Assembly (NCBI GenBank): GCA_903904685.1
Contig: CAIVDS010000026.1
Coordinates: 62,001-126,000 of the forward strand
Direction of reading: 5' to 3'
DNA: 64,000 nucleotides
Source: an uncultured Verrucomicrobiota bacterium
Lineage (GTDB): Bacteria; Verrucomicrobiota; Verrucomicrobiia; Opitutales; Opitutaceae
Part shown: one piece after another, positions 30,241-45,322 of the stretch
Layout: each line of letters starts with the position of its first letter
Numbering within the stretch: the stretch's first letter is position 1
The notes under the pieces: model-generated
Seen by the model: only the letters and a program-made list of their open reading frames with translations
Told to the model about the DNA's origin: nothing
The model's database searches: none
Position numbers and translations under genes: made by a program

Positions 30241-30999
30241 TCAGCCTGCGGGACACCTTGTCAGCCGCGTGCGAAGTTCACGCGGCGATAGGCGGAAGTG
30301 CCGGCGGAAAAGTTTGGAAAGCTGATACTCGTCATTGAGGCCCACGGCGGCGGCGATCGCCTTCACCGGCTGATTCGAGACCAGCATCATCGCTCGGGCC
30401 TGATTCAGGCGGATACGCTGCAACTCCTGCATCGGCGTGCGTCCGTTGAGGCGTTTGAATTTACGCACAAACGCGAATTTGCTCATGCCCATGCGACGGG
30501 CAAGATCGTCCAAGTAAAGCGGACAGGCGTGGTGTCGCTGCATATGCTGGCGGATTTCAGCGAGCCAGGGATCGGGCGGCGACGAGCATAGCCGCTTCAC
30601 CTCAATCAGCACCGCATCCAGCAACGGCGCTAGTTGCTCCGCCGTGCAGCCAGCCTCGTGATCGCGCACCAGCCAGCCCGCCATCTGGCGAACGCGCCCG
30701 TCGGCATCGTGGGTGCGCAAAGCCAGCGCCGCCGTCCGGTCCTCATCCGCCTTGAACGAGAGGAAGAGCGTGTTCACCGGATCCTTGCGGTCCGATGTTT
30801 CCTGATGTGCGCAACCCGCCCGGTAAAACAGCAGGTCTCCCGCCTCGGCGCGGACAGTTTTCTCCGCGGTTTCGAGGAATATCCGCCCGCCGAGCACGAT
30901 GATCAACTCATGCACGCCGTGGCTGTGCCAAGGCATATGCCAGCGGGCATCGGGACGGATTTCGCCCCCCATCAAGAATTCATGCGTAGAACCGATCAT
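30241..30999 (-). CDS. AraC-family transcriptional regulator
   Basis: A 252-residue regulator. The N-terminal cupin has the metal/sugar pocket pattern WHMPWHSHGVHELIIVLGGRIFLE and AEAGDLLFYRAGCAHQE near residues 20-67. The C-terminal DNA-binding region covers about 155-250 (LYLDDLARRMGMSKFAFVRKFKRLNGRTPMQELQ and VKAIAAAVGLNDEYQLSKLFRRHFRLSPREL). ATG 30999 is preferred. An in-frame ATG at 31035 would leave only 34 bases to the divergent gene. It is divergent from a Gfo/Idh, VCBS and GH4 cluster and probably controls it. Confidence 0.9.
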   Translation of the reverse strand: MIGSTHEFLMGGEIRPDARWHMPWHSHGVHELIIVLGGRIFLETAEKTVRAEAGDLLFYRAGCAHQETSDRKDPVNTLFLSFKADEDRTAALALRTHDADGRVRQMAGWLVRDHEAGCTAEQLAPLLDAVLIEVKRLCSSPPDPWLAEIRQHMQRHHACPLYLDDLARRMGMSKFAFVRKFKRLNGRTPMQELQRIRLNQARAMMLVSNQPVKAIAAAVGLNDEYQLSKLFRRHFRLSPRELRTRLTRCPAG

Positions 31000-31069
31000 G
31001 AGCAATATCCGACAAGTTTTGGCAACCACCGCCATTCACGCCAGCCCCGATTGCTGGTAGCGTTACCAT

Positions 31070-32134
31070 ATGTCCCCTTCCCCAAAGATCCGTGTCGCCT
31101 TCGTTGGCGTAGGCATGATGGGCCAGGCCGCCCACCTGAGAAACTACGCCTCTCTCCGTAACGACTGCGAAGTCGTCGCCCTCTCGGAGCTGCGTCCGCA
31201 ACTCGGCGAGGCAGTCGCCCGCAAGTTCGGCGTGCCTCGCGTCTATGGCGACTTCGCCGAAATGCTCGGTCGCGAAAAAATCGACGCCATCGTGGCGTCT
31301 CAGCAATTTTCGCGTCACGGACTCATCGTGTCGGAACTGGCCAAGGCGGGCGTGCCGCTTTTCACCGAAAAACCGATCGCGGCCTCCGTCGAGGTCGGCG
31401 AGCGCATCGTCGAAACGGTCGCGGCGAACAAAACGTGGCTCATGGTGGGTTACCACAAGCGCAGCGACCCGGCCACGGTCTACGCAAAGAAGGCCATCGA
31501 CGAGCTCAAGCAATCCGGCGAGCTCGGCAAGTTGCGTTATGTGCGCCTCTCGATGCCGCCAGGCGACTGGATCGCCGGAGGCTTCAACGACTACATCGGC
31601 ACCACTGAAACTTCACCCGTCCTCGCCGAAGACCCAAAGCCTCGCGACATGGACAAAGCGACCGCACAGAGCTACGAGGCGTTCGTTAATTACTACATTC
31701 ACCAGATAAACCTCATGCGGCACCTCGTCGGCGAAGCGTGCAAAGTCACCTATGCCGATCCGGCGAAAGTGTTGTTGATCGCGCACAGCGCGAGCGGCGT
31801 CCCCTGCACGTTGGAGATGGCGGCCTACACCACGTCGATCGACTGGCAGGAAACGGCGCTGATCGGCTTTGATCACGGGTATGTGAAACTGTCGCTGCCC
31901 GCTCCGCTCGCCCACAACCGCGCAGGCACGGTCGAGGTGTTCAAAGACCCAGGCAACGACGCCACGCCCGTCCTGCTGCAACCGCAGATGCCGTGGGTTC
32001 ACGCGATGCGCGCCCAGGCGATCGCTTTCATCAAAGCGGTGCGTGGCGAGGCGCCCGCACCCTGCCTCGCGGCGGACGCCCTTGAAGACATTCGCATGGC
32101 CCGCGACTATATCCGCATGCTGGGAGCATCCTGA
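31070..32134 (+). CDS. Gfo/Idh/MocA-family oxidoreductase
   Basis: A 354-residue NAD(P)-dependent sugar oxidoreductase. The Rossmann domain opens RVAFVGVGMMGQAAHLRNYAS, and the family EKP motif is in PLFTEKPIAASVEVGERI near residue 103. The pattern MVGYHKRSDPAT stands where related enzymes have the conserved catalytic-pocket Lys. The C-terminal beta-sheet domain follows. It is the first gene of the unit controlled by the divergent AraC gene, two bases before the VCBS gene. Sugar C3, C1 or inositol oxidation is possible. The family does not fix the substrate. Confidence 0.88.
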   Translation: MSPSPKIRVAFVGVGMMGQAAHLRNYASLRNDCEVVALSELRPQLGEAVARKFGVPRVYGDFAEMLGREKIDAIVASQQFSRHGLIVSELAKAGVPLFTEKPIAASVEVGERIVETVAANKTWLMVGYHKRSDPATVYAKKAIDELKQSGELGKLRYVRLSMPPGDWIAGGFNDYIGTTETSPVLAEDPKPRDMDKATAQSYEAFVNYYIHQINLMRHLVGEACKVTYADPAKVLLIAHSASGVPCTLEMAAYTTSIDWQETALIGFDHGYVKLSLPAPLAHNRAGTVEVFKDPGNDATPVLLQPQMPWVHAMRAQAIAFIKAVRGEAPAPCLAADALEDIRMARDYIRMLGAS

Positions 32135-32136
32135 TC

Positions 32137-33264
32137 ATGGCACTCCAATTCAGAAAACAAATCCTCTCGGCGGAACGCTTCGAAAGCACGGGGGTTTTCG
32201 ACGTGAATGGCGACGGCATTCCCGACATCGTCAGCGGGGCGTTCTGGTATGAGGGGCCTGATTTCAAGAAACAATACCGTCTGGCGAACCTCGAACCGCA
32301 GGGAGATTATTTTGACGATTTCTCAACCATCTCGATGGACATCAACGGGGACGGGCGCATCGATTTCGTCACGGGCGGTTGGTGGGGCGGCACCCTGCGC
32401 TGGCGGGAAAATCCCGGCGTTTCCGGCAAGCTGTGGCCGGAACACATCATTGCCGAAACCGGCAACATCGAGACCACCCGCGCTTGGGACATCGATGGAG
32501 ACGGCGAGTTGGAACTTGTTCCCAACACGCCGAATCATCCGCTCGTGGTTTACAAATTGATCCGTGACGCCAACGGACGCGGCACTGGAAAATTTGACGC
32601 ACACAAACTGAAATTCGCCGGACGCGAAAACGATAAACAAGGCCATGGACTCGGTTTCGGCGATGTGACCGGCAACGGACGCGGTGATTTCATCTTTGCC
32701 AACGGGTGGCTGGAAGCACCGCCCAATCCCTACGAAGACGAGTGGATCTGGCATCCTGAATTCGAGTTTCCCTGGGGCGCCGGGGTTCCGATTCTGGTCG
32801 TCGACTTGAACGGCGACGGCGTGAGCGAGTTGATCGTCGGCCAGGGCCACGGCTACGGGCTTGCATATTGGACGCAGGCCCAGAAAGGCAACGGTTCCCG
32901 CATCTGGACGCAGCATCCGATCGATCCCTTCAGCAGTCAGTTTCACGACTTGCAGTGGGTGGACATCGACAACGACGGGAAATGCGAACTCGTCACCGGC
33001 AAGCGCTTCCGCGCCCATCCGCACAACGAGCCCGGGCTTTTTGATCCGGTTGGTTGGTATATCTACAAATGGACGGGCGAAGGCTTCGCCAAAATCATCG
33101 GCGACTTTGGCCCGTTCGGCTCCGGCCACGGGCTCGGCATTTCCTTCGCCGTTGCCGATCTCACGGGCAACGGCCGGCTCGATGTGATCGCGCCCGGCAA
33201 GGAGGGCCTCGCCATCTACTACAACGAAGGTGACGGCATGAAAGAAATGCCGTTGATCTCGTAA
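32137..33264 (+). CDS. VCBS/FG-GAP repeat protein without signal peptide
   Basis: A 375-residue protein of repeated beta-propeller blades. Calcium-binding-like loops recur: DVNGDGIPDI, DINGDGRIDF, DIDGDGELEL, DVTGNGRGDF, DLNGDGVSEL, DIDNDGKCEL and DLTGNGRLDV. That makes seven loops, consistent with a seven-bladed propeller. VCBS proteins are usually exported, but this one starts directly MALQFRKQILSAERF with no signal peptide or membrane helix. It lies two bases after a Gfo/Idh gene and 28 bases before GH4, so it must be part of that sugar operon. Its role is unknown. It could be a sugar lyase or isomerase fold or a binding protein. Confidence 0.85.
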   Translation: MALQFRKQILSAERFESTGVFDVNGDGIPDIVSGAFWYEGPDFKKQYRLANLEPQGDYFDDFSTISMDINGDGRIDFVTGGWWGGTLRWRENPGVSGKLWPEHIIAETGNIETTRAWDIDGDGELELVPNTPNHPLVVYKLIRDANGRGTGKFDAHKLKFAGRENDKQGHGLGFGDVTGNGRGDFIFANGWLEAPPNPYEDEWIWHPEFEFPWGAGVPILVVDLNGDGVSELIVGQGHGYGLAYWTQAQKGNGSRIWTQHPIDPFSSQFHDLQWVDIDNDGKCELVTGKRFRAHPHNEPGLFDPVGWYIYKWTGEGFAKIIGDFGPFGSGHGLGISFAVADLTGNGRLDVIAPGKEGLAIYYNEGDGMKEMPLIS

Positions 33265-33292
33265 GTTCGAAATCCTTAATATCCCAAAAAAC

Positions 33293-34711
33293 ATGCCCAA
33301 GATCGCGATGATCGGCGCAGGAAGCCTCGTTTTCTGCAAAACTCTGATGTCGGACTTCCTCGCCACGCCCGCCCTCGCGGGCGCGGAGTTCAGCCTGATG
33401 GCACGCACGCACACGCGTCTGGATAAGATGCATCAGTTCGTCAGTCGGATGATCCGCGACAACGGGCTTGCCGCGACCGTGAATGCCACCACTGATCGCC
33501 GCGAAGCGCTCAAGGGCGCCGACTATGTCGTCGTCATGATTCAGGCGGGCGGGGTCGATGAGTTCCGACAGGATTATGAAATCCCGCTCAAATACGGGAT
33601 CGATCAATGCATCGGTGATACGATGGGACCCGGCGGAATCTTTCGGGCGCTCCGTCACATCCCGGCGCTGCTTGAGATCGCCCGAGACATGCGCGAGCTG
33701 TGCCCGAACGCCATTCTGTTCAACTATGCCAATCCCATGGCGATGTGTTGCTGGGCGCTGGGGCAGGTGCCCGGCCTGCAATTCGTCGGGCTCTGCCATG
33801 GCGTACAGACCACGATGGACCTCATCGCCAGTTACACTGGTGTGCCCAAGGACGAGATAGATTTTGTGGCGGGCGGCATCAACCATATGGCGTGGTTCCT
33901 CAAACTGGAGCATCAGGGCCGCGACCTCTACCCGACGCTAAAAGAGAACTTCGAAAAGCCCGGTTACTATGTGAACGAGAAGGTGCGGGCGGAGGTCATG
34001 CGGCACTTCGGCTATTTCATGACCGAGAGCACCGGCCATCTCTCCGAATATCTCCCCTATTTCCGAAAGAACCAAAAAGCGCTCAAGACGTATTGCGACG
34101 AGCCGTCCTTCGGCGGCGAGTCCGGCGCCTATTACAAATACTGCGCCATGCTGGCGGAGAAGTTCGCCAAGACCGATCCGCTTTCGCTGGAGACCACCGA
34201 ACTCGGCCCACGCAGTGCTGAATATTGCTCGCACATCATCGAGGCCAAGGAGACCGGCCGGATTTTCCGGCTCAATGGCAACGTCCGCAACGACGGCTAC
34301 ATCAACAACCTGCCCAACGGCTGTTGCGTGGAGGTTCCCATCTACGTGGATCGCCTCGGCCTGCATCCGACTGTATTGGGCGACCTGCCCGTTCAATGCG
34401 CAGCGTTGAACATGACCAATGTTTTGGTGCAGGGGCTCACGGTGGAAGCCAGCCGAACCGGCGATCCTGAGTTGGTGATGAACGCCGTGGCGATCGATCC
34501 GCTCACGGCCTCTGTCCTCACCTTGCGTGAAATCCGCGAGATGGTCGCTGAAATGCTCGATGCGGAGAGCCGCTATCTTCCGCAATTTGCAGGCAAAAAA
34601 CTGCGCTCAGCTCCAGCCATCGGCATCCCGACGGACGTCATGCGGGCTAATGTCCCGCTTGATCCCGCGCTGGCGATCGCCAACCGCTTCATGAAACTAG
34701 CCGGAGCGTAA
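33293..34711 (+). CDS. GH4-family alpha-galactosidase/alpha-glucosidase
   Basis: A 472-residue NAD- and Mn-dependent glycosidase of family GH4 (MelA/AglA-type). The Rossmann opening is KIAMIGAGSLVFCKTLMSDFL. The metal/active-site motifs are FNYANPMAM near residue 143, GLCHGVQTTMDL near 166 (metal Cys), and GGINHMAWFLKL near 197 (metal His). TESTGHLSEYLPYF near 244 provides the catalytic Tyr region. Family members oxidise the substrate at C3, eliminate the aglycone, then reduce back, so they need NAD+ and Mn2+. Members with this CHGVQ motif act mainly on unphosphorylated alpha-glucosides or alpha-galactosides. It ends the operon and is followed by a strong terminator. Confidence 0.92.
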   Translation: MPKIAMIGAGSLVFCKTLMSDFLATPALAGAEFSLMARTHTRLDKMHQFVSRMIRDNGLAATVNATTDRREALKGADYVVVMIQAGGVDEFRQDYEIPLKYGIDQCIGDTMGPGGIFRALRHIPALLEIARDMRELCPNAILFNYANPMAMCCWALGQVPGLQFVGLCHGVQTTMDLIASYTGVPKDEIDFVAGGINHMAWFLKLEHQGRDLYPTLKENFEKPGYYVNEKVRAEVMRHFGYFMTESTGHLSEYLPYFRKNQKALKTYCDEPSFGGESGAYYKYCAMLAEKFAKTDPLSLETTELGPRSAEYCSHIIEAKETGRIFRLNGNVRNDGYINNLPNGCCVEVPIYVDRLGLHPTVLGDLPVQCAALNMTNVLVQGLTVEASRTGDPELVMNAVAIDPLTASVLTLREIREMVAEMLDAESRYLPQFAGKKLRSAPAIGIPTDVMRANVPLDPALAIANRFMKLAGA

Positions 34712-34753
34712 GAACGACAAAGCGGGTTGGGTTTGATCAAGCGGATCGCTTTA

Positions 34754-34781
34754 AAAGCCGCACACATAACGGTGCGGCTTT
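34754..34781. terminator. Bidirectional intrinsic terminator after GH4
   Basis: AAAGCCGCAC pairs with GTGCGGCTTT around an eight-base loop. T-rich sequence follows on both strands. It lies between the GH4 gene (plus) and the deoxyhypusine-synthase-like gene (minus), so it can serve both. Confidence 0.85.
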
Positions 34782-34833
34782 GATTTGAAACCTTGGTTGG
34801 ATCCGTCGCGCCTTTGCTTTTCAACCCGATCTC

Positions 34834-35880
34834 TTACTTGCCGAGCACCCAGCTGAAGATCAGCGGGGCCACGATCGTCGCGTCGCTCTCGATGATGAAC
34901 TTCGGGGTCTTCTGGCCGAGCTTGCCCCAGGTGATCTTCTCATTCGGCACCGCGCCGGAGTAGCTGCCATAGCTTGTGGTCGAGTCGCTGATCTGCGAGA
35001 AATAGCCCCAAAGCGGCACTTCGCGGCGACCAAGATCCTGATGCAGCATCGGGACAACGCAGATTGGAAAATCACCGGCAATACCGCCGCCGATCTGAAA
35101 GAAGCCGATCGAGCCTTCGCCGTTTTTGAGGCGCTTGGCGGTCTTCGTATACCACTCGGCAAGCACAGTCATGTATTCGATGCCGGTGCGCACGGTGTGG
35201 ACGTTCTTGATCTCGCCGGTGATGACGCGACCGGCAAACATGTTGCCCAGCGTGGCGTCTTCCCAGCCGGGAACGATGATCGGGAGGTTCTTCTCGCTGG
35301 CGGCAAGTATCCAGGAGTTCTTCGGGTCGATCTGATACATTTTTTTCAGCTTACCGGAGCGAAGAATCTTATACATGAACTCGTGCGGGAAAAAGCGCTG
35401 GCCGGACTGATCGGCAGCCAGCCACTCCTCGGCGACGGCGGCCTCGATGCGACGCATGGCCTCGCCCTCGGGGATGCACGTGTCGGTCACACGGTTCATG
35501 TGGCGGTCGAGCAGCGCCTGCTCGTCGGCGGCGGTGAGATCGCGATAGCCAGGGACGCGCTCGTAGTAGTCGTGGGCGACGAGGTTGAAGATGTCTTCCT
35601 CGAGGTTGGCGCCGGTGCAGACGATGGCGTGGACCTTGTCGGCGCGGATCATCTCGGCGAGCGTGAGGCCGAGCTCGGCTGTCGACATGGCTCCGGCAAG
35701 AGTGACGAGCATTGTTCCGCCCGCCTTGAGGTGAGCCTCGTAGCCCTTGGCAGAGTCAAGCAGTGCAGCGGCATTAAAGTGACGATAGTTATGCGCGATG
35801 AACTGCGAGATCGGGCCTTTTTTGAAGGCAAGCTTAGCGTTGATATCCTCAGGGCGCTTGTGGAGCTTGGCTTTCTTCAT
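34834..35880 (-). CDS. Deoxyhypusine-synthase-like protein
   Basis: A 348-residue member of the deoxyhypusine synthase superfamily. NAD-binding and spermidine-site features are visible: AGAMSTAELGLTLAEMIRA, ICTGANLEEDIFN and HEFMYKILRS in the first half. The key catalytic lysine motif is KITWGKLGQ near residue 315 (WGK, equivalent to the human enzyme's active-site Lys). Bacteria lack hypusinated eIF5A, and bacterial members often make homospermidine or act on other amines (family knowledge). Ornithine decarboxylase and a homospermidine synthase lie 26 kb away, so polyamine chemistry is a reasonable guess. ATG 35880 starts the conserved part. The upstream in-frame ATG at 35946 is unlikely. Confidence 0.85.
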   Translation of the reverse strand: MKKAKLHKRPEDINAKLAFKKGPISQFIAHNYRHFNAAALLDSAKGYEAHLKAGGTMLVTLAGAMSTAELGLTLAEMIRADKVHAIVCTGANLEEDIFNLVAHDYYERVPGYRDLTAADEQALLDRHMNRVTDTCIPEGEAMRRIEAAVAEEWLAADQSGQRFFPHEFMYKILRSGKLKKMYQIDPKNSWILAASEKNLPIIVPGWEDATLGNMFAGRVITGEIKNVHTVRTGIEYMTVLAEWYTKTAKRLKNGEGSIGFFQIGGGIAGDFPICVVPMLHQDLGRREVPLWGYFSQISDSTTSYGSYSGAVPNEKITWGKLGQKTPKFIIESDATIVAPLIFSWVLGK

Positions 35881-36047
35881 AAAAGTGGGCGACAAACTTA
35901 CAGCGGGCCGGAAACCCGACGCCACAAAAATCCTGCTTTCACCCATTCGTCACCAACCGCCCCTCAGAGGGGAGATATAGTTGGAATAGGTTTGATTTGG
36001 TGCGATCTGGTGCAACTCGCGATGATACGCACCTTACGGAAATAATA

Positions 36048-36103: not shown

Positions 36104-36115
36104 TGGAATGGGTCA
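36104..36115. repeat. Terminal inverted repeat candidate, left (pair with 38191-38202)
   Basis: TGGAATGGGTCA here is the exact reverse complement of 38191-38202. The pair brackets the phage-derived genes, and the left copy overlaps the portal stop codon. Twelve exact bases at both edges could be chance, but the position is suggestive. Confidence 0.3.
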
Positions 36116-37687
36116 GCTCGTCGCCGCCGCCGACCCATTTGCGGCAAACGCCGCCAGGCTTTGCTCGATGATCTCGGCCGCCGTGACCACGTCGAGGCTC
36201 GCGCAGTAGGTCTCGATGCGGTCGAGCGCCTCCGCCGGCGATGCCGCGGTCGCGATCAACGCCTCGAGCGGTGCATAGGTCGTGCCCAGGGCACGCGCCA
36301 GGCGTGCACCGCCGCTGCGCAGGATCGCCTGGTTGGCGGCGTCGGCCTTTCCGATCCGTCCGTCGGCGCTGTGGATCTGCACGGACATCGGGAATGTCCC
36401 ACCCCCTCCGCCAAAACCGCCCGCCGCGGGGGCCGCCGGCGCCGGATCGCGCTCGATCGGCATGCCGAAACGCTCCGAAAGGGTGTCCATGCCCGCGTCG
36501 CCCACCCGGAGCCCGCCCGATTTGAGCGACGCCAGCCAGGTGGCCGTCGCCGTGATCTCCGCGAGCGAGACCGCGCCCCAGATCGCCATGGGCGCCCGGC
36601 CCTTGAGGCCGTTGTAACGGATGATGTCGCCGAAAAGCTGGAACTTCAGCGTCGCGCCCAGCCTCCGGGCGTCGGACTGGCGCTTATCCTGGCGGACCTC
36701 CGCCTGGTCGGTCGCCCCGCCGTCGCTCAACCCGCCTCCCTTGGCGTCCGAGCTGAGCGTCTGCCCGAGGATGAGCTTGCTGATCTCCTCGTTGGCCGCC
36801 CGGCGGAACTTGTCGAACGCGTCCCCGCTGTCCTTCGCGGTGGCCTGCATGATCTCGACCGAGGTTTCCTTCGACACGGCGAGGCCGCCAAGCACCGTCG
36901 CCAGGCTGAACGCCCGTTCGAGGATCGTCCGCGAGGCGTCGTCGGCCTGATCGTATTTCCCCAGGAGAAACGGCGTGCCGTATTTGTCGAGAAACCGGCT
37001 CCACCACTCCCGCGACATCGTCCCTAGGAGCCACCAGAACACCAGCGAGCGCATCGGGCCGCCCCAGTTGTCGGCGAAGCCCAGCGTATGCCCGCGATGG
37101 ATGATGTAGCGGTCGGAATCCGGCGCGAAAATCTGCCCCGTGGGGAATCCCTGGTCGTTGGTGCATTTGATATTCAGCCTGCCGTAGCGGAAATCGAGCA
37201 GGTCGTGCGGCACCGGCGCCAGCTCGGCCAGCTCGTAGCCGATCATCACGCCATCGACCACCTTGCCGACCGGCTTGAAGACCTTTTCCACGATCGCCAC
37301 CGGGTAGAGCATCGAGTCGAGCAGGTGCATGCACGCGGTTTCCCAGCCCTGCAGCCCCTTGATCTGCGCATCGACCACCTTGGCGGCGGCCACGTCGTCG
37401 GCGTTGGCCTTGTCGAACGGCTGGATGTTGAGCGTGTCGCCCATCACCGCCTCCTTGCGCTCCGCGAAACGCCCCTGCAGGTGCGAATGGGTCAGGATGA
37501 TGTCGCGATACAGCGCGAAAAGCAGCGCGCAATCCCCCGTCTCGGCCGCCCGCAGGATGTCCGCCAGGCGATCGACGTCGAGCGTGCTGGCGATCTCGTT
37601 GAGCATCGCCCGATTGTTGAAAAGCGTGACCTTCTTGGTGGGAATCCAGCTTAGGATCTTCTGTTGGACTTGGGTATAGAGTGACAT
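36113..37687 (-). CDS. Mu-like phage portal protein (DUF935, gp29-like)
   Basis: A 524-residue portal protein like gp29 of phage Mu, which forms the ring through which DNA enters the capsid. LLFALYRDIILTHSHLQGRFAERKEAVMG near residue 54, DRYIIHRGHTLGFADNWGGPMRSLVFWWLLG near 192, and WWSRFLDKYGTPFLLGKYD near 228 match the DUF935 pattern. A glycine-rich linker (GGFGGGGGTF) precedes the C-terminal region. The frame is intact with a GGAG ribosome site 10 bases upstream. No head, tail, integrase or transposase genes accompany it apart from small fragments at 37709-38080, so it is an orphan of a degraded or partial prophage. Confidence 0.88.
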   Translation of the reverse strand: MSLYTQVQQKILSWIPTKKVTLFNNRAMLNEIASTLDVDRLADILRAAETGDCALLFALYRDIILTHSHLQGRFAERKEAVMGDTLNIQPFDKANADDVAAAKVVDAQIKGLQGWETACMHLLDSMLYPVAIVEKVFKPVGKVVDGVMIGYELAELAPVPHDLLDFRYGRLNIKCTNDQGFPTGQIFAPDSDRYIIHRGHTLGFADNWGGPMRSLVFWWLLGTMSREWWSRFLDKYGTPFLLGKYDQADDASRTILERAFSLATVLGGLAVSKETSVEIMQATAKDSGDAFDKFRRAANEEISKLILGQTLSSDAKGGGLSDGGATDQAEVRQDKRQSDARRLGATLKFQLFGDIIRYNGLKGRAPMAIWGAVSLAEITATATWLASLKSGGLRVGDAGMDTLSERFGMPIERDPAPAAPAAGGFGGGGGTFPMSVQIHSADGRIGKADAANQAILRSGGARLARALGTTYAPLEALIATAASPAEALDRIETYCASLDVVTAAEIIEQSLAAFAANGSAAATS

Positions 37688-38351: not shown

Positions 38352-39752
38352 TCACAGCTCGTCGACAACTCGGAGCGCGCCGGGCGAGAAGCGGCCCCCT
38401 CTCAGGCCGAGCAATTCCCGATAGAGCGAGCGGAGTTCACGTGAATAAGGTTTTACCGGATACGAAACGAGAGCATGGGCGAGTTGGCGTGGGTCATCAG
38501 TGGCCAAGGCGTCGCCGAGAAGGGTCTGGTGGGCTGCGAGGCCGGCGGCGAGCCCGTGGACGACATCGGGTATCTCAAGGGGGACCGAGGATGACGGACG
38601 GATGTCGTTTTTGAAAAGAATCTGGCTGTATTCGACCGTATGCCGGTCTTTGATACCCGCGATGGCACCGTGGTTGGGGCGGCTGGTTACGATCCGAGCC
38701 TCACGCACACCCGCGAAGGCGGCGAAGATGCGCACAAAGATATCTTCATCATGCCGACGGAAACGATGGTCGGTATCGCCGAAGTCGCGCCAGAAGGCAT
38801 CGTTGAGATCACGTCCGAGAAAATCATTGAAGGTGCGATCACCGTCCGCACGGGCTGCAGCGCGCCGGGCGAGACTGGCGGCGAGATCCGCGGCACCGAG
38901 CTCGCGATATGCTTCCCGCGCGTCGGCTACGGCTTCGTCATACATGAGGTGGTCCATGCCGTCACCTTCGGTCGAGAAGACGAGGACCCCGAGTTCGCGC
39001 CAAATGCGGGCGAGGCGGGAGACGCTGCGGGTGATGTTGCTGCGGGCGCCGGCATCCCAGCGGGAATGGAGGGCTGGGGGCTGCCAGTCGGGGCTGAGGT
39101 GGCGGTCGAGTGCGGCGAAAAGATCTCCGTCTTTCCAAGAAGCTTTCACGATATAACTGAGATGATTGATGCCGGCGACCAGCACGTCGATCCCGGGGGC
39201 TTCTTCATCACGACCGAAAAGGCGGGGAATGTCCGAAAGGTGGTTGGTAAAACCGGCGCAGACACCAAGGGCGCGGATGCGGGTGTGATTGTTGATCATA
39301 CCGGAGATCACCGCGACGGGGTTAACGAAGTTGATCAGCCAGGCATCGGGGCAGTGGCGCTCCATGCGTCGAGCAAGGTCGAGCAAGACGGGCGCTATGC
39401 TGACGGCACACAACGAACCGGTGGGCGAGACGTTGTCGGAACTGATGAAACCGTGCCGAAGTGAAACCCATTGGGCGCGGTCGAAAAACTCGGCACTGGT
39501 TGCCGGCATGATGACGGCGACGACGGATGCGCCGGGAAGAGCCTCGTCGAGAGACGCAGTCCAAGTGACGCGGCATCCGGAACGACGTTGCTCCGGGGTC
39601 TTGAGAAGCATGCGGCCCATGGCCTCGGCACGGGCGAGATTGAGATCACAGAGGCAGATTTCTCCGGCGTCGAGGACTCCGGGGAGGGCGAGTGTGCTGC
39701 GGGATATGGAGAGCACGCGATGGGCGCCGCCGCCAATAAACACAAGTTTCAT
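38352..39752 (-). CDS. Divergent GH4-family glycosidase
   Basis: A 466-residue NAD-dependent GH4-type protein. KLVFIGGGAHRVLSISRSTLA forms the Rossmann turn. The active-site landmarks are INFVNPVAVISGM near residue 140, LGVCAGFTNHL near 163 (metal Cys retained), and VAGINHLSYIVKA near 193 (metal His retained). FSTEGDGMDHLMYDEA near 262 replaces the usual STGHxSEYLPY region, so the catalytic-Tyr environment differs from classical MelA/AglA members. The protein is Arg/Ala-rich at the C-terminus. It is downstream of an MFS transporter on the same strand, 127 bases apart, suggesting uptake of its substrate. The substrate is unknown and could be an atypical glycoside. Confidence 0.85.
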   Translation of the reverse strand: MKLVFIGGGAHRVLSISRSTLALPGVLDAGEICLCDLNLARAEAMGRMLLKTPEQRRSGCRVTWTASLDEALPGASVVAVIMPATSAEFFDRAQWVSLRHGFISSDNVSPTGSLCAVSIAPVLLDLARRMERHCPDAWLINFVNPVAVISGMINNHTRIRALGVCAGFTNHLSDIPRLFGRDEEAPGIDVLVAGINHLSYIVKASWKDGDLFAALDRHLSPDWQPPALHSRWDAGARSNITRSVSRLARIWRELGVLVFSTEGDGMDHLMYDEAVADAREAYRELGAADLAASLARRAAARADGDRTFNDFLGRDLNDAFWRDFGDTDHRFRRHDEDIFVRIFAAFAGVREARIVTSRPNHGAIAGIKDRHTVEYSQILFKNDIRPSSSVPLEIPDVVHGLAAGLAAHQTLLGDALATDDPRQLAHALVSYPVKPYSRELRSLYRELLGLRGGRFSPGALRVVDEL

Positions 39753-39879
39753 AGCTCTTCATTACCGTGAAGATAAGGGACGGGGTTTGTCAATTTTAGC
39801 GCTGGCCGCCGCTTTTCAAGAAATCGAAGTGAGCGGAGTAACCACACGGCACTCCCATCCGCAGCGACAGATCCAGGCA

Positions 39880-41322
39880 TCACTCTCGCCGGCGACGATA
39901 AAACAAGTAGTCTACCAGAAAGGTCAGGCCCAGCACCGACACCACGTTACGGTAGGATCGCATCGCCCCCACCAACTGCGAAATCGGCTGCGACTTCGGC
40001 TCGGTCACCCGCAACAAAAGCATCACCGTGGACATGATCAGCGTATGGTAAATTGCCGCGCCCCACTGGTAAACCGTTAGCTTGTCCCACCCCTGCGCCA
40101 GCGCCATATCCAGCAACCAGCCCCCCATGATCGGCGCCACCGTCGCCGGCAGTGCCGTCACCGCCATGTTCACGCTGATCGCGGTCGTTTTCGCCTCAGG
40201 CGGCACGATCTTCAGCAACAACCCAAACAACCCCTGCATGAACCCCGCCGCAAATACACCGGCCACGGCCCACATCAGGTAGAGTACCCAAAGCCGCTCC
40301 GGCGTCGTCACCGTCCACAGATAGCCGTTCATCATCCATGTGATCAGGCAAAAAACCATCACCGGCCGGTTGCCGTAACGGTCGATAAACGGCCCCCAGC
40401 CCACCATCGCTGCCGCACCCGTGATGCTCGACAACACCACCAGCGTCGTCACCTGCGATACCGACATCCTAAGCACATCGAGCATAAACACGTTGAAAAA
40501 CGGCCCCATCAGATTGATCGTAAACCCGAAGGCTGCGCCAAACCACAGGTAACGCAGAAACTGCGGCTGCTCCAGTATCCGTTGCAATTGCCACTGCCAG
40601 GAACGGTTCGTCGCCCGCTGCACTCCGCCGGCCGCGCCATCACCTGCTTTCACCGCCAAATCCACTGGCGAATAGGTTTTCCCCTGCATGCACAACGAAC
40701 TCACCCGCATCAACATCGAGCCTCCTAACAGCATCGCCAACCCAAACAACAACCCCTTCTCCCCGCCCTCACCGTCTTGCGCCAGCCACCATCCCACAAA
40801 AATCAAAAACACCACCGTTGCCACCTGTTGGGCCGCGTTGCGGCGTCCAAAATATTTACCGCGGATACGCTCCGGCGCAAACTCCTGCACCCATGAGGTC
40901 CAACTTACCGCTATCAGGGACATCGCCGCCGCCTGCACCGCAAAAAAGCCGATCAGGATGAAAAATACGCCGTGCGTACCATCCTGCCTCAAAAAGGGCA
41001 ACACCCCGACCAGAGCAAACACCGTCGCGCAATGCACCCAACCACCCACCAAAGCCAGGCGTTTCGCGGTGAAATGCCGGTTGAGCGCCGGCATCACCCC
41101 GACCTGAAGCGCGTTGAACAACGCCTGCAACGACACCAGAATCCCGAACCGCGCAACCGATAAATGGAAGTAACGCGTTAGTAAAACCGTCATCACCACA
41201 TTGCCGGGCGCCGCCAAAAACATGGAAGGCACTCCGAACATGACCTCCCAGAGGCAATATTGCAGGTTGCGACGCAGGCGGGAAGGGCGACGGGTGGGTG
41301 ACATGTCAAAGTGAGACACCAT
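39880..41322 (-). CDS. MFS transporter
   Basis: A 480-residue inner-membrane major-facilitator permease with about 12 hydrophobic segments. The inter-helix loop ERIRGKYFGRRN near residue 150 matches the conserved MFS loop, and FIDRYGNRPVMV near 317 the second-half equivalent. The early LAAPGNVVMTVLLTRYFHLSVARFG resembles sugar-type porters. Start ATG 41322; ATG 41304 is an alternative. It precedes the divergent GH4 gene at 38352, so it is probably the uptake system for that enzyme's substrate (context inference). Confidence 0.88.
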   Translation of the reverse strand: MVSHFDMSPTRRPSRLRRNLQYCLWEVMFGVPSMFLAAPGNVVMTVLLTRYFHLSVARFGILVSLQALFNALQVGVMPALNRHFTAKRLALVGGWVHCATVFALVGVLPFLRQDGTHGVFFILIGFFAVQAAAMSLIAVSWTSWVQEFAPERIRGKYFGRRNAAQQVATVVFLIFVGWWLAQDGEGGEKGLLFGLAMLLGGSMLMRVSSLCMQGKTYSPVDLAVKAGDGAAGGVQRATNRSWQWQLQRILEQPQFLRYLWFGAAFGFTINLMGPFFNVFMLDVLRMSVSQVTTLVVLSSITGAAAMVGWGPFIDRYGNRPVMVFCLITWMMNGYLWTVTTPERLWVLYLMWAVAGVFAAGFMQGLFGLLLKIVPPEAKTTAISVNMAVTALPATVAPIMGGWLLDMALAQGWDKLTVYQWGAAIYHTLIMSTVMLLLRVTEPKSQPISQLVGAMRSYRNVVSVLGLTFLVDYLFYRRRRE

Positions 41323-41426
41323 CCTTTAAAAGTTTCGCGAGGCGCAATGCACGTGATAAATTTCCCAAGAGAACGTCTGATATCGACAGCTATATGGTAT
41401 TGGACTCCAGGCTGGAGTGTCAGGAA

Positions 41427-41660
41427 TCACTTGCTCGGCGAGCCGGGAGTGGATGATGGAGGAAACGGCAACCGGGGTGGACCAAGGCGAGCTGCAGAGG
41501 CGATATGATCTTCGGGTTTAGAAGGATTGGAGGTGGGGGATGCGCGGATCACCTGCGGGCAGGTGGAATCCGGCTTGGGCAATCCGCCTGAGGAATAGGG
41601 CGAGATATCCCGGTCGATGGCGGGAGTGAACAACAGCTCGATTGAGTGCTGGCCGTCCAC
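41427..41660 (-). pseudogene. Possible gene remnant in a 500-base gap
   Basis: On the minus strand an open stretch reads LEVDGQHSIELLFTPAIDRDI, then SPYSSGGLPKPDS, and ends SAARLGPPRLPFPPSS before a stop. The first half looks protein-like, while the Pro/Ser-rich tail does not. There is no ATG or ribosome site, and an in-frame TGA lies a few codons upstream. I do not recognise it. The rest of 41323-41828 shows no gene. An AT-rich patch at about 41675-41700 (ataaataactcaatttgtaa) could hold a promoter. Confidence 0.25.
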
Positions 41661-41828
41661 CTCCAGTGCTTCGTTATAAATAACTCAATTTGTAAGTTAT
41701 GGCAAACTCCTCTCCCTGGCAAGTGGGAAGACCTTTGAAAATTGATCGGTGTATGCACCCGGTTGCGCTGTAGCCGCCCTCGCCCCCCGGTGGTAATCTC
41801 GACGCGGACGCAACGATGCACTATTTAA

Positions 41829-42182
41829 TTACATCGGGCATTTCATGCAACCGGCGGCGCTATCTTTGATTTTTGGCTTCGTTGCGGCCACGGCATCGAT
41901 TTCTTTTAGGTATTTTGCCGGGTCTTTCTTGAATTTTCCGATGCACATCTTGCAACAGAAGCGCACAAGGCGGTCCGGCTGGCCCTCCTGCTTGTAGACA
42001 TAATCGATGGGCAGGCCCATGTCTCCGGCGACGAGGGCTTCACCAGAGACCACACAGGCAGAGAGCGGGTAAGCGGCCTTGGCTTTGGCGAGGTCGAACG
42101 TATCGGCGGCATGGGCGAAGGCGACAATGAAGAAACCAACGATGAGGGCTAGAACGAGACGAACGGATTTGATGAATTTCAT
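41829..42182 (-). CDS. Periplasmic YHS/TRASH-like metal-binding protein
   Basis: A 117-residue exported protein. The signal peptide VRLVLALIVGFFIVAFAHAADT is cleaved after AHA near residue 25. The mature part has ACVVSGEALVAG, then VRFCCKMCIGKFKKDPAKYLKEI, a pattern seen in YHS/TRASH-type domains that bind copper or other soft metals with cysteines. The C-terminal CMKCP adds another CxxC. Function is unproven. It may be a copper chaperone, but it is far from the copper ATPase. Confidence 0.82.
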   Translation of the reverse strand: MKFIKSVRLVLALIVGFFIVAFAHAADTFDLAKAKAAYPLSACVVSGEALVAGDMGLPIDYVYKQEGQPDRLVRFCCKMCIGKFKKDPAKYLKEIDAVAATKPKIKDSAAGCMKCPM

Positions 42183-42299
42183 GTGTGGTGAAGGAATGTG
42201 GTTCAGACGTAATACGCAACCGGACGGTACATCCCTTGGAATTTAAAAAAGAGCGGATATGACAGTCGTTTAAATAACGCTGTGTTAAAAATCGAAGTA

Positions 42300-42389
42300 T
42301 CACTGCAACACGGCGAAGTCGGGATCATGAGGGGCTTCCTTTTTCCATGTCGGTTCGCGAGCGAAGACTAGGGCGAGCCCGCAAGACAT
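42300..42389 (-). other. 29-codon open frame of doubtful coding value
   Basis: ATG at 42389 reads MSCGLALVFAREPTWKK and continues EAPHDPDFAVLQ before TGA. The end looks like a real protein terminus, and the frame stays open for ten codons upstream of the ATG, so it may be a gene tail. It is too short to support a function. Bases 42323-42340 nearly repeat 42574-42591 in the adjacent Gfo/Idh gene (17 of 18). Confidence 0.2.
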
Positions 42390-42480
42390 GACTTGGTCAA
42401 GCTGGCGTGGGCTGCAACGCAGCGCAATCCATCAGCCCCCTTTGCTACCCCCGCTTCCATCCCCGATGTTGGCGGACGTA

Positions 42481-43515
42481 TCAGGCGTATTTGGCGGGCA
42501 AGGTACGGCCTTGCCTAGCGCTTTGGGCAGCAAGGTCGAGGATGTGGATCGGGCGACGAGACCACTCGGCGGTGATCACGAGGGGCTTCCTGCGCACAAG
42601 GTGGTCGCGAACGTTTTGGTAGTAGCGTTCGCCTTCGTCCTTGGGGTTGGGGAGCTGGGTGGTGATGACGCGGCCGTCCCGGTGCTGGTAGAGCTTGGAG
42701 TTGCCTCCATCTAAAAGCAGCGTGCCAGTGGTGCCGGTGACTTCAAGCCAACCCTCCTTTCCCTTGGAATCAATCTGGGTGACGGCCAAGGTGAGCCATT
42801 GGCCGCCTTTGAAGCGCACGACCGCGTAGCCTTCGTCCTCGTTGGTGTCTTTCTTCCAAGCGGTCTTTGGCGCCCAGAAGCCCTCGTGCGCGAAACCGGC
42901 CACCTCGGTGATGGGAGCGTCGATGAGCTGGAGGGAATATTCGAGGAGGTGAACTCCCCAGTCGTAAAGGATGCCTCCGGAAATCGAGCGACTGGTGCGC
43001 CACCAATCGCGAGGCTGGCCATAGCCGCCCATGTGAGCCTCGATGCGCACGATGTCGCCGATGAGTTTCTGTTTCTTGACGAGGTCAACGGCCTGAAGGA
43101 TGCGACCGTCCCAATGGCGGTTATGATAAGTCGAAAGCATCACCCCGGATTTCTTCGCGGCGGTGATCATCGCATCGACCTCCTTCGTGGTGATGGCGAG
43201 GGGTTTTTCGCAGACGACGTGGCGGCCGGCGCGCAGACACTGGAGCGCGAGAGGGGCGTGCGTGTTGTGCGGAGTGATGAGCACGACGAGGTTGACCGCT
43301 GATTTTTTCAGCATGGCCGCGACGGACACGTAGGTCTCGATGCCGGGAAAATCCTGCGTGGCAACAGCCAGACGGGAGGCGTCCACTTCGGCGACGGCGA
43401 CGGGAGTCATGCCGGCGGCCTGCATCTGCTGGAGGTGCTGACGACCCATGTTAAAGGCGCCGCCGTAACCTATGACACCGACTTTGATTTCGGAGGGTTT
43501 CTTGCAGGTCTTCAT
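42481..43515 (-). CDS. Gfo/Idh/MocA oxidoreductase, ThuB-like by context
   Basis: A 344-residue oxidoreductase. It opens IKVGVIGYGGAFNMGRQHLQQM. LITPHNTHAPLALQCLRAGRHVVCEKPLA near residue 95 has the EKP motif, and STYHNRHWDGRI near 128 and GGILYDWGVHLLEYSLQLI near 184 give the substrate His positions. It follows the ThuA-like gene by 15 bases on the same strand. In rhizobia, ThuA and ThuB (a Gfo/Idh dehydrogenase) act together in disaccharide use via 3-keto sugars, so this pair could do the same. The exact sugar is not known. Confidence 0.88.
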   Translation of the reverse strand: MKTCKKPSEIKVGVIGYGGAFNMGRQHLQQMQAAGMTPVAVAEVDASRLAVATQDFPGIETYVSVAAMLKKSAVNLVVLITPHNTHAPLALQCLRAGRHVVCEKPLAITTKEVDAMITAAKKSGVMLSTYHNRHWDGRILQAVDLVKKQKLIGDIVRIEAHMGGYGQPRDWWRTSRSISGGILYDWGVHLLEYSLQLIDAPITEVAGFAHEGFWAPKTAWKKDTNEDEGYAVVRFKGGQWLTLAVTQIDSKGKEGWLEVTGTTGTLLLDGGNSKLYQHRDGRVITTQLPNPKDEGERYYQNVRDHLVRRKPLVITAEWSRRPIHILDLAAQSARQGRTLPAKYA

Positions 43516-43530
43516 GGAAAGACTTGTTGA

Positions 43531-44172
43531 TCAGAGCACGCCAGCGGCCCAGAGAACGCCTTGAACGGTGAGTGTACGTGCGGCGAGGAAGTTGGTGAAT
43601 TCTTCGGGCGCGTGGCCAAGGGCGTTGTAGAAGATGCGGCCCCGCCCCCACATTTTGATCCAAGCGACAGGCATCACGGCGACCCGGCCTTCGTAAACAT
43701 AGAGGGTGTCGGCGAGAATATGCACGCCGGGGTCCATCATCATGTAATACTGTTCGGATTTATAGGCAAAGGTGCTTGGCAACCCGGCGGTGATGGGGCT
43801 GGCGAAATCACGGATGTTGACGGTGTAGTCGCCGACATGCGGGTGGCCGACGAAGTGGCCGCCGGTCATCCATTCGTAGTCGAGATTGCCGCGGAAAGCG
43901 TCGCCCATGCCGCCATGGACGCCGGCGAGGCCGACGCCGGAGCGCACGGCCTCTTGCAGGCCTTTGCTTTGCTCGGGGGTGAGCTGGCCCATCGTCCAGC
44001 AAGGGAAGATGACGGAGAAACCCTTGAGGGCTACGGGATCGGCGAGGCGGTCCAAGGTGGTGTCGATCACGGTTTCAAAGCCGTGGGCTTGGAGCTCATT
44101 GGCGAAGAGCTGGACAACTTTTTCAGGATGATGGCCATCCCAGCCACCTGTGAGAAAGAGGACGCGTTTCAT
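43531..44172 (-). CDS. ThuA-like domain protein
   Basis: A 213-residue ThuA/trehalose-utilisation domain protein with a glutamine-amidotransferase-like fold. It opens KRVLFLTGGWDGHHPEKVVQLFANEL. IFPCWTMGQLTPEQSKGLQEAVRSGVGLAGVHGG near residue 75 holds the family GxHGG turn, followed by WMTGGHFVGHP and NALGHAPEEF. It carries no signal peptide, so it is cytoplasmic. It lies directly upstream of the Gfo/Idh gene, forming a likely two-gene unit, and is divergent from the aldo/keto reductase. Confidence 0.9.
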   Translation of the reverse strand: MKRVLFLTGGWDGHHPEKVVQLFANELQAHGFETVIDTTLDRLADPVALKGFSVIFPCWTMGQLTPEQSKGLQEAVRSGVGLAGVHGGMGDAFRGNLDYEWMTGGHFVGHPHVGDYTVNIRDFASPITAGLPSTFAYKSEQYYMMMDPGVHILADTLYVYEGRVAVMPVAWIKMWGRGRIFYNALGHAPEEFTNFLAARTLTVQGVLWAAGVL

Positions 44173-44332
44173 ATTTTAAATGTATGGGTGATTATCGTAA
44201 TAGACTCGTGTGGCGGTTGGAATGGATACGCTTGTCAAAAACATGGATTTTCTGGTCAAGTATTAGGGCGGTTACACGATTCCACATCTGTGCTATCCGA
44301 CTCCTTTCCCACGCTGCTTTATTGTTTCCATC

Positions 44333-45322
44333 ATGTATTCTCCCTCCCCTACGCGTTACGATACGCCGGCCCTTTACCGCCGTTGCGGCCGTTCCGGTCT
44401 CCAGCTTCCCCTGATCTCCCTGGGGCTCTGGCATAATTTTGGCGGCGTGGATGTTTATGAAACCGGCCGGGTCATCGTGCGCCGCGCCTTTGATCTTGGC
44501 ATCACCCATTTCGACCTCGCCAACAATTACGGTCCCCCTCCCGGCTCCGCTGAGGAAAATTTCGGCAGGATTCTCCGCGCCGACCTCGCCGCCCACCGCG
44601 ACGAACTGATCGTCGCCACTAAGGCCGGCTATCACATGTGGGCCGGACCCTACGGCGAATGGGGTTCGCGCAAATACCTGCTCTCCTCCCTCGACCAGTC
44701 ACTCAAGCGCCTCGGCCTTGATTACGTGGATATTTTTTATCATCATCGGCCGGACCCAAATACTCCGCTTGAGGAATCGATGGGGGCGCTCGCCCACGCC
44801 GTGCGCAGCGGCAAAGCACTCTACGTCGGCCTCTCCAACTACAAGCCCGAGGAAACCGCCCGCGCCGCCCGTATCCTTCGCGACCTCGGCACACCCACGC
44901 TCATTCATCAGCCGGTCTACAACATGTTCAACCGGTGGATCGAACCCGCGCTCCTCGACGTCCTCGCCAATGAGGGCATGGGGTGCATTCCCTTCTCTCC
45001 CCTCGCCCAAGGTCTGCTCACCAACCGCTATCTCGCCGGCATCCCCGTCGATGCCCGTGCCGCCAAATCCCACGGGTTCCTTAAGGCCGACCGCATCACT
45101 CCCGAGGTGCTTACCAAAGTCAAAAAGCTGAACGTCATCGCCCAAACCCGCGGTCAGTCTCTGGCCCAGATGTCGCTTGCTTGGACCGTGCGCGATCCAC
45201 GCGTCACCACCGCCCTCATCGGCGCGAGCAAAGTCTCGCAGCTAGAGGATAACTTCGCCGCCCTCAACACCCTCGATTTCACCTCCGACGAGCTGGCGCA
45301 AATCGACGCGATCCTCGCGTGA
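44333..45322 (+). CDS. Aldo/keto reductase, YghZ-like
   Basis: A 329-residue NADPH-dependent aldo/keto reductase of the YghZ/Kv-beta-type group. The catalytic Tyr lies in FDLANNYGPPPGSAEENFG near residue 62, the Lys in LIVATKAGYHMWAGPYGEWGSRKYL near 96, and the His in DIFYHHRPDPNTPLEES near 137. SPLAQGLLTNRYL and TALIGASKVSQLEDN (coenzyme) follow. YghZ homologues reduce L-glyceraldehyde 3-phosphate and other aldehydes. rsmE starts within its stop codon (GTGA), so they are co-transcribed. It is divergent from the ThuA gene. Confidence 0.92.
   Translation: MYSPSPTRYDTPALYRRCGRSGLQLPLISLGLWHNFGGVDVYETGRVIVRRAFDLGITHFDLANNYGPPPGSAEENFGRILRADLAAHRDELIVATKAGYHMWAGPYGEWGSRKYLLSSLDQSLKRLGLDYVDIFYHHRPDPNTPLEESMGALAHAVRSGKALYVGLSNYKPEETARAARILRDLGTPTLIHQPVYNMFNRWIEPALLDVLANEGMGCIPFSPLAQGLLTNRYLAGIPVDARAAKSHGFLKADRITPEVLTKVKKLNVIAQTRGQSLAQMSLAWTVRDPRVTTALIGASKVSQLEDNFAALNTLDFTSDELAQIDAILA

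Follow-up and report, generated by a model that had tools for sequence, protein, structure and literature searches.

The stretch of DNA analysed here (the window) covers 64,000 nucleotides of contig CAIVDS010000026.1 from an uncultured Verrucomicrobiota bacterium, and it carries a compact operon in which the gene of a VCBS-repeat protein is placed between those of a Gfo/Idh oxidoreductase and a GH4 glycosidase, with gaps of 2 and 28 bases and a divergent AraC-family regulator. This arrangement had been given in an original prediction made from the letters, and the open reading frames and Pfam matches agree with it. With moderate confidence, we take the 375-amino-acid VCBS protein to be an enzyme of the cytoplasm and not an adhesin: a keto-sugar beta-eliminase/dehydratase that probably depends on a metal and uses the product of the Gfo/Idh enzyme as its substrate. 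This reading draws on computed properties, namely a predicted fold, a residue match with the fungal enzyme AUDH (aldos-2-ulose dehydratase), a conserved face, a genomic pairing with Gfo/Idh and the absence of a signal peptide. The genes of the operon are:

30241-31035, reverse strand: divergent AraC-family regulator with a cupin sensor domain (Pfam HTH_18 E 7.1e-19, Cupin_2 7.4e-9)
31070-32134, forward strand: Gfo/Idh/MocA oxidoreductase with an EKP motif (E100-K101-P102) and H211 (PF01408)
32137-33264, forward strand: predicted seven-bladed VCBS propeller without signal, proposed keto-sugar lyase/dehydratase (Pfam, model, fold searches, alignments and context)
33293-34711, forward strand: GH4 glycosidase of the alpha-galactosidase subfamily, with C168-H169 and H198 (subfamily score and conserved residues)

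The VCBS protein belongs to the FG-GAP/VCBS beta-propeller superfamily, with Pfam matches to FG-GAP_3 (PF13517, E 3.8e-26, 91.9 bits against a cut-off of 26.9) and FG-GAP (PF01839, E 4.2e-16, 58.9 bits against 22.1), and curated cut-offs are passed for FG-GAP families only. The seven calcium-type loops seen earlier are present at D22-D30, D68-D76, D118-E126, D176-D184, D223-E231, D276-E284 and D341-D349, five of them being DxNGDG/DxDxDG and two (blades 4 and 7) DxTGNG. The AF2 model (pLDDT 93.7, pTM 0.92) has strands for seven blades, and the protein is thus predicted to be a seven-bladed propeller.

The protein has no signal peptide. Upstream of the ATG at 32137 only 17 codons are open (open frame, 392 codons) and none of them is ATG, GTG or TTG, so a missed export signal, as a candidate explanation, was rejected. 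The best hydrophobic 10-mer in the first 40 residues has a mean of 1.11; the value is at most 1.66 in 45 signal-less sequences read from their annotated starts, and at least 2.29 within the first 60 residues of the longest frames of 11 of 12 exported relatives (L057 was not scored; L numbers denote loci). The reading as a common VCBS/FG-GAP surface protein, exported but with its start wrongly placed and with sugar genes nearby by chance, would agree with the passing of FG-GAP cut-offs alone and with the export of many relatives, but it is strongly contradicted and extremely improbable, as there is no space for a signal upstream, the gene pairing described below is kept in several phyla, and the pocket residues are absent from the FG-GAP protein on contig C25 of the same genome. 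In that genome (3.2 Mb), FG-GAP_3 matches are confined to the VCBS gene and one frame on C25. The C25 protein (contig C25:1504-2988, reverse strand, loci L129-L132) is encoded by a frame of 941 codons that includes a leader-like stretch, and it lacks the pocket residues.

The family to which the VCBS protein belongs is unannotated. It has a single member in the window's genome, relatives at E <= 1e-20 occur in 51 of 288 Verrucomicrobiota genomes, and a species-level genome collection yielded 97 confirmed relatives, of which 80 were kept and combined with 30 loci among the Verrucomicrobiota matches. Titles of the relatives name Verrucomicrobiota, Planctomycetota, Bacteroidota, Bacillota (Paenibacillus), Spirochaetota and Armatimonadota, among others, and close relatives from other phyla are 46-62% identical, which is high for a repeat protein. 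Removal of L074 and L077, whose frames are short or truncated, from the 110 loci left 108 sequences, 56 close and 52 other, L057 (a near copy of L055) being counted among the 52; alignments A1 and A2 held 43 and 23 hand-picked sequences, L086 being omitted from A2 owing to a stop codon in the range. No name for the family was found in titles and abstract openings among the open-licence PubMed Central matches listed, a coverage that leaves out most subscription journals. In viral contigs, none of nine pattern-matching stretches encodes a relative.

Conservation reaches at least 93% at 87 positions among the 56 close sequences, and 11 charged or histidine residues are conserved in at least 90% of the close and at least 75% of the 52 other relatives. 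Six of them, E112, H238, H270, R290, H294 and K355, are identical in all 108 sequences. In the predicted model, on which blade and strand letters were assigned by hand, the A-B loops, which are the calcium ones, and the C-D loops contain none of the 11, and seven fall in D-A or B-C loops (Fisher p 0.028, a modest value); H270 and K289 are placed at adjoining strand ends, and the D strands carry H206 and H260. The six invariant residues are thereby predicted to lie on or beside one propeller face, and the structure prediction proposed earlier for finding an active-site pocket returned both the propeller and, in the model, this face. The main codons, all on the forward strand, are:

32470-32472: Glu112, invariant in 108/108; aligned to AUDH His155
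32644-32646: His170, in 96% of 56 close and 83% of 52 other relatives; aligned to AUDH His215
32848-32850: His238, invariant; aligned to AUDH His295
32944-32946: His270, invariant; aligned to AUDH His337
33004-33018: Arg290 to His294 (in GKRFRAH), R290 and H294 invariant; no AUDH match
33199-33201: Lys355, invariant in 108/108

AUDH performs the Zn2+-dependent dehydration of 1,5-anhydrofructose/glucosone. It is the first solved fold found by Foldseek (E 1.5e-9), and its three entries occupy the top of the VIA list (Z 27.6, 27.4 and 27.3 over 330-337 residues at 19% identity; next entry, 24.5). A 2012 paper on this enzyme is said to place a catalytic zinc in the propeller and to describe His155 as acid/base. 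When AUDH residues 100-388, read off the HMMER printout, were aligned to the VCBS family, one MAFFT mode set H170, H206, H238, H260 and H270 opposite H215, H255, H295, H320 and H337, respectively, and E112 opposite His155; in all five modes, the five conserved histidine columns and E112 each stand opposite an AUDH histidine. Shuffled AUDH sequences reached at most four such columns (five in 0/80), and the C25 FG-GAP protein, cut into four pieces, matched at most one conserved histidine per piece, with R290 in one of them. Because the AUDH fold and these histidines are shared, keto-sugar chemistry is likely for the VCBS protein, by analogy with the fungal enzyme.

The genomic context was read in 59 loci of close relatives, 47 signal-less and 12 exported, a split set by hand from N-termini and later checked on 56 sequences; counts are over all 59, including loci that are truncated or at contig ends (e.g. 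L119, L051, L074, L069, L077, L122, L124). A same-strand Gfo/Idh gene within 1.6 kb, sharing 38% identity or more with that of the window, accompanies the propeller gene in 40 of the 47 signal-less loci, a GH4 lies within 4 kb in 16, and an AP_endonuc_2-type gene, ketose-3-epimerase-like, is adjacent in nine; GH4 and the AP_endonuc_2-type gene never co-occur in loci of close relatives. The constant unit is thus the Gfo/Idh and VCBS pair: of the three-gene set for which the original prediction proposed a survey, this pair recurs across genomes and the GH4 does so in a minority, and the concern that homologues might always be found without sugar enzymes does not hold for the close ones. Among the seven loci outside the count, L040 has an adjacent Gfo/Idh of 31% identity, L052 has one 5.1 kb away, L119 and L051 have 123 and 75 bases upstream, L074 loses part of the gene at the end of its contig, and L043 and L062 have none. 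Over 38 loci, the distances among VCBS proteins follow those among the Gfo/Idh proteins (r 0.734, against a maximum of 0.392 in 1000 permutations), a correlation that leaves shared species history in. An AraC homologue is found somewhere in the locus in 24 of the 47. A further gene cluster by BLAST, c10 (uroporphyrinogen-decarboxylase-like by Pfam on the L040 member only), recurs near the Gfo/Idh and propeller genes in L040, L042, L048, L049, L052, L069, L113, L114 and L121.

The window's oxidoreductase belongs to Gfo/Idh/MocA, with the Rossmann domain (PF01408, E 3.3e-20, 73.4 bits against a cut-off of 24) and the EKP motif; EKP and H211 are kept in at least 95% of 38 partner sequences. Its nearest solved relatives are mostly inositol dehydrogenases, as is its best NCBIfam match, and an inositol branch could be imagined in which GH4 acts on a compound resembling galactinol to free an inositol, Gfo/Idh converts this to the inosose, and the propeller takes over the role of IolE by dehydrating the inosose. 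This is very improbable: the protein scores 95.6 bits against the IolG equivalog cut-off of 355 and is therefore not filed as IolG, and best matches of a Gfo/Idh protein tell little about its substrate.

The GH4 protein matches the family's N and C domains (PF02056/PF11975, 4.5e-56 and 9.9e-52) and scores 551 bits against the cut-off of 486 of the NCBIfam alpha-galactosidase subfamily (PRK15076). Residues C168, H169 and H198, the Cys/His metal site of GH4, are kept in at least 95% of 18 partner GH4 sequences. The motif here is CHG, but that of MelA is CHS, and an alpha-galactoside is no more than a possible substrate. Some of the nine loci with the epimerase-like gene are closely related to the operon of the window, in which GH4 is present; neither gene occurs in L032. 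This gene content suggests that the further partner may have been swapped. With the GH4 proteins of L042, L115 and L121 that of the window shares 83% identity, the propellers only 57-61%; the swap is no more than suggested, since GH4 is the more conserved of the two proteins in every locus that has both.

Exported relatives keep other company. None of the 12 close ones has the window-type Gfo/Idh; in L054, L063, L067 and L068 another Gfo/Idh type lies 2.2-2.7 kb upstream, and GH4 is present in L054, L067 and L068. The Gfo/Idh of L067 has glycoside 3-dehydrogenase as its best NCBIfam match, below the cut-off (150.6 against 750 bits). Exported L071 is flanked by genes for a cytochrome-c protein, a PF06439 3-keto-disaccharide hydrolase and AP_endonuc_2-type proteins, with a sugar-epimerase-like gene among its neighbours, and L055 has a DUF7133/cytochrome-c neighbour; PF06439 gave no match in the window's genome, the control search being positive in 4 of 14 genomes. 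In L125, L050, L053, L055, L056, L057 and L070 none of the partners sought was found. The distant, exported relatives (L072 on, bar truncated L074 and L077), whose surroundings were covered by the three-protein search alone, mostly stand apart from sugar enzymes: GH4 is absent, and weak matches to Gfo/Idh number three (L072, L086, L098). Loci L017-L030 are about 4 kb long. Oxidoreductase and propeller would share a compartment, to judge from the partners whose N-termini were read, because the Gfo/Idh proteins of signal-less loci (window, L042, L048, L049) have no leader and those of exported L063, L067 and L068 carry RR-type leaders. A quick tree requires three compartment changes, two of them forced by well-supported branches, and nests the Bacteroidota members among signal-less ones (fork support 82). 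The exported propeller gene is directly preceded, in L063, L067, L068 and L070, by members of a single BLAST cluster, for which Pfam shows HEAT repeats in L070.

Several results weigh against the proposed enzyme activity or its kinship with AUDH, besides the modest face enrichment and the species history within the distance correlation. The Foldseek margin of AUDH is small, KICSTOR following at 2.7e-9, and with sequence profiles AUDH is outranked among solved structures by CRTAC1 (E 6.5e-11) and by PVL-type lectins, which match best. All profiles, among them ones with distant relatives and with the two protein halves, found AUDH, at E of 0.0019, 0.0028, 0.00049 and 0.0032; the 0.00049 profile puts blades 2-4 on AUDH 281-380, in a different register. 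The hhalign match is limited to 63 columns in blade 6 (E 1.3e-5, probability 80.5%); the distant profile gave another match, of 35 columns and in a different register (E 0.0011, probability 20.1%). The equivalent of His155 is Glu112, a glutamate in all 108 sequences, and R290 and H294 have no AUDH counterpart. As for context, L043 and L062, with 8 kb per side covered, have no window-type Gfo/Idh, and none of six Bacteroidota relatives has a Gfo/Idh within the thresholds (weak matches about 7 kb off in L050 and L071). A non-catalytic Gfo/Idh partner, that is, a sugar-binding or scaffolding propeller, would account for the pairing, for the correlated divergence and for CRTAC1 and lectins as best profile matches; it is nevertheless improbable, given the Glu, His, Arg and Lys residues that stay unchanged in all 108 sequences and are also kept in relatives without a nearby window-type Gfo/Idh (L043, L062 and those from Bacteroidota).

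For the favoured elimination by the propeller through an AUDH-like site, we infer the metal, the catalytic roles (base, metal ligands and leaving-group acid), elimination over another keto-sugar reaction, and the substrate. The seven calcium loops would hold the propeller fold, and the opposite face, made of D-A and B-C loops, would be the active site. With NAD(P)+ as oxidant, the Gfo/Idh enzyme would turn one hydroxyl of a sugar or glycoside taken up by the cell into a ketone. The keto-sugar would then bind to the propeller through a metal, with His170, His238 and His270 as its ligands, and the metal would polarise the ketone. Glu112, at the position of AUDH His155, would take the proton alpha to the ketone, and the beta oxygen substituent would depart with the aid of the R290/H294/K355 group, giving an unsaturated keto-sugar. 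A neighbouring step might be carried out by GH4 here or by the ketose-3-epimerase-like enzyme in sister operons. The idea of a cytoplasmic keto-sugar enzyme, already raised by the original prediction, is thus strengthened by the missing signal, the predicted enzyme-like face, the Gfo/Idh tie and the AUDH fold and histidines, the reaction itself being proposed.

Another keto-sugar enzyme, such as an isomerase, an epimerase, or a hydratase adding water to an unsaturated keto-sugar made elsewhere (e.g. by the epimerase-like partner), would fit the same fold, pocket and context; AUDH is termed bifunctional, with dehydratase/isomerase in the title of its paper, and the alternative partner is itself ketose-3-epimerase-like. 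This explanation is possible but on the unlikely side, as the isomerisation by AUDH presumably takes place in its cupin domain, which the VCBS protein lacks, and the dehydration in its propeller.

It is a tentative proposal, one we would not yet call likely, that proteins labelled FG-GAP/VCBS include a widespread and so far unrecognised bacterial family of metal-dependent keto-sugar beta-eliminases, which would break down sugars by oxidation and elimination together with a dedicated Gfo/Idh, with cytoplasmic and exported forms, and with a catalytic site known until now from a fungal dehydratase. FG-GAP/VCBS repeats are usually taken as binding or adhesion modules, and this family keeps an enzyme-like face, its signal-less branch having a nearly constant oxidoreductase partner across several phyla. 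If the reaction is true, many "VCBS repeat" proteins would be sugar-cleaving enzymes, and oxidation-elimination breakdown of glycans would gain another lyase fold.

As regards the surroundings, the AraC and Gfo/Idh starts are separated by 34 bases (31036-31069), which leaves little space for two separate promoters; the consensus scan gave no promoter in this gap, and over 30900-34900 scans for promoters and terminators stayed at chance level. Downstream, a bacterial deoxyhypusine-synthase family protein (PF01916, E 1.2e-37) is encoded at 34834-35946 (reverse strand), and a second sugar cassette follows at 38352-45322, about 3.6 kb away; between both cassettes, at 36113-37687 (reverse strand), lies a phage portal gene of Mu type (PF06074, E 1.1e-56). 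The second cassette contains:

38352-39752, reverse strand: divergent GH4
39880-41322, reverse strand: MFS transporter
42481-43515, reverse strand: Gfo/Idh
43531-44172, reverse strand: ThuA
44333-45322, forward strand: aldo/keto reductase

Among known systems, AUDH of Phanerochaete chrysosporium (PDB 4a7k/4a7y/4a7z) is a seven-bladed VCBS propeller, the best structural match with five aligned histidines, and by its name acts on a keto-sugar, as proposed for the VCBS protein. It differs in being fungal and in its 900-residue chain, against 375 amino acids, which we take to include cupin and C-terminal lectin domains; the VCBS protein passes FG-GAP cut-offs only. The VCBS protein is of the VCBS/AUDH kind but is not filed as AUDH, for it has neither His155 nor the cupin and lectin domains. 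The full AUDH architecture, sought by PF18637, was found in 0 of 194 Verrucomicrobiota genomes and also in 0 of 14 controls, so that its absence is not demonstrated. AUDH propellers were placed in the VCBS superfamily by Pereira and Lupas, who, in the excerpted text, mention unstudied peripheral families (PMC8023676). The PL11 rhamnogalacturonan lyases YesW and YesX are also VCBS-related propeller lyases, with a histidine aligned to His270, but they have about 590-620 residues and polymer substrates, and they match the VCBS protein locally only (Foldseek ranks 37 and 16, respectively).

In chemistry, the levoglucosan pathway LgdA-LgdB1-LgdB2-LgdC is comparable, LgdA being presumably a Gfo/Idh protein. 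According to the excerpts of its paper, one cluster encodes oxidation at C3 followed by beta-elimination and includes the Gfo/Idh/MocA protein LgdC, and its authors compare the set with GH4 (PMC7676230). The eliminating protein is, however, annotated there as a sugar phosphate isomerase/epimerase and is not a propeller (PMC7676230). The PF06439 3-keto-disaccharide hydrolase adjoining the exported relative in L071 has the same presumed substrate class and belongs to a different family. The 3-keto-C-glycoside lyase PuCGE presumably also has a fold different from a propeller. It resembles the proposed enzyme in its Mn2+, its catalytic histidine and its beta-elimination of 3-keto-glycosides, and it differs in being a heterodimer, the word "propeller" appearing nowhere in the excerpted text (PMC13273386).

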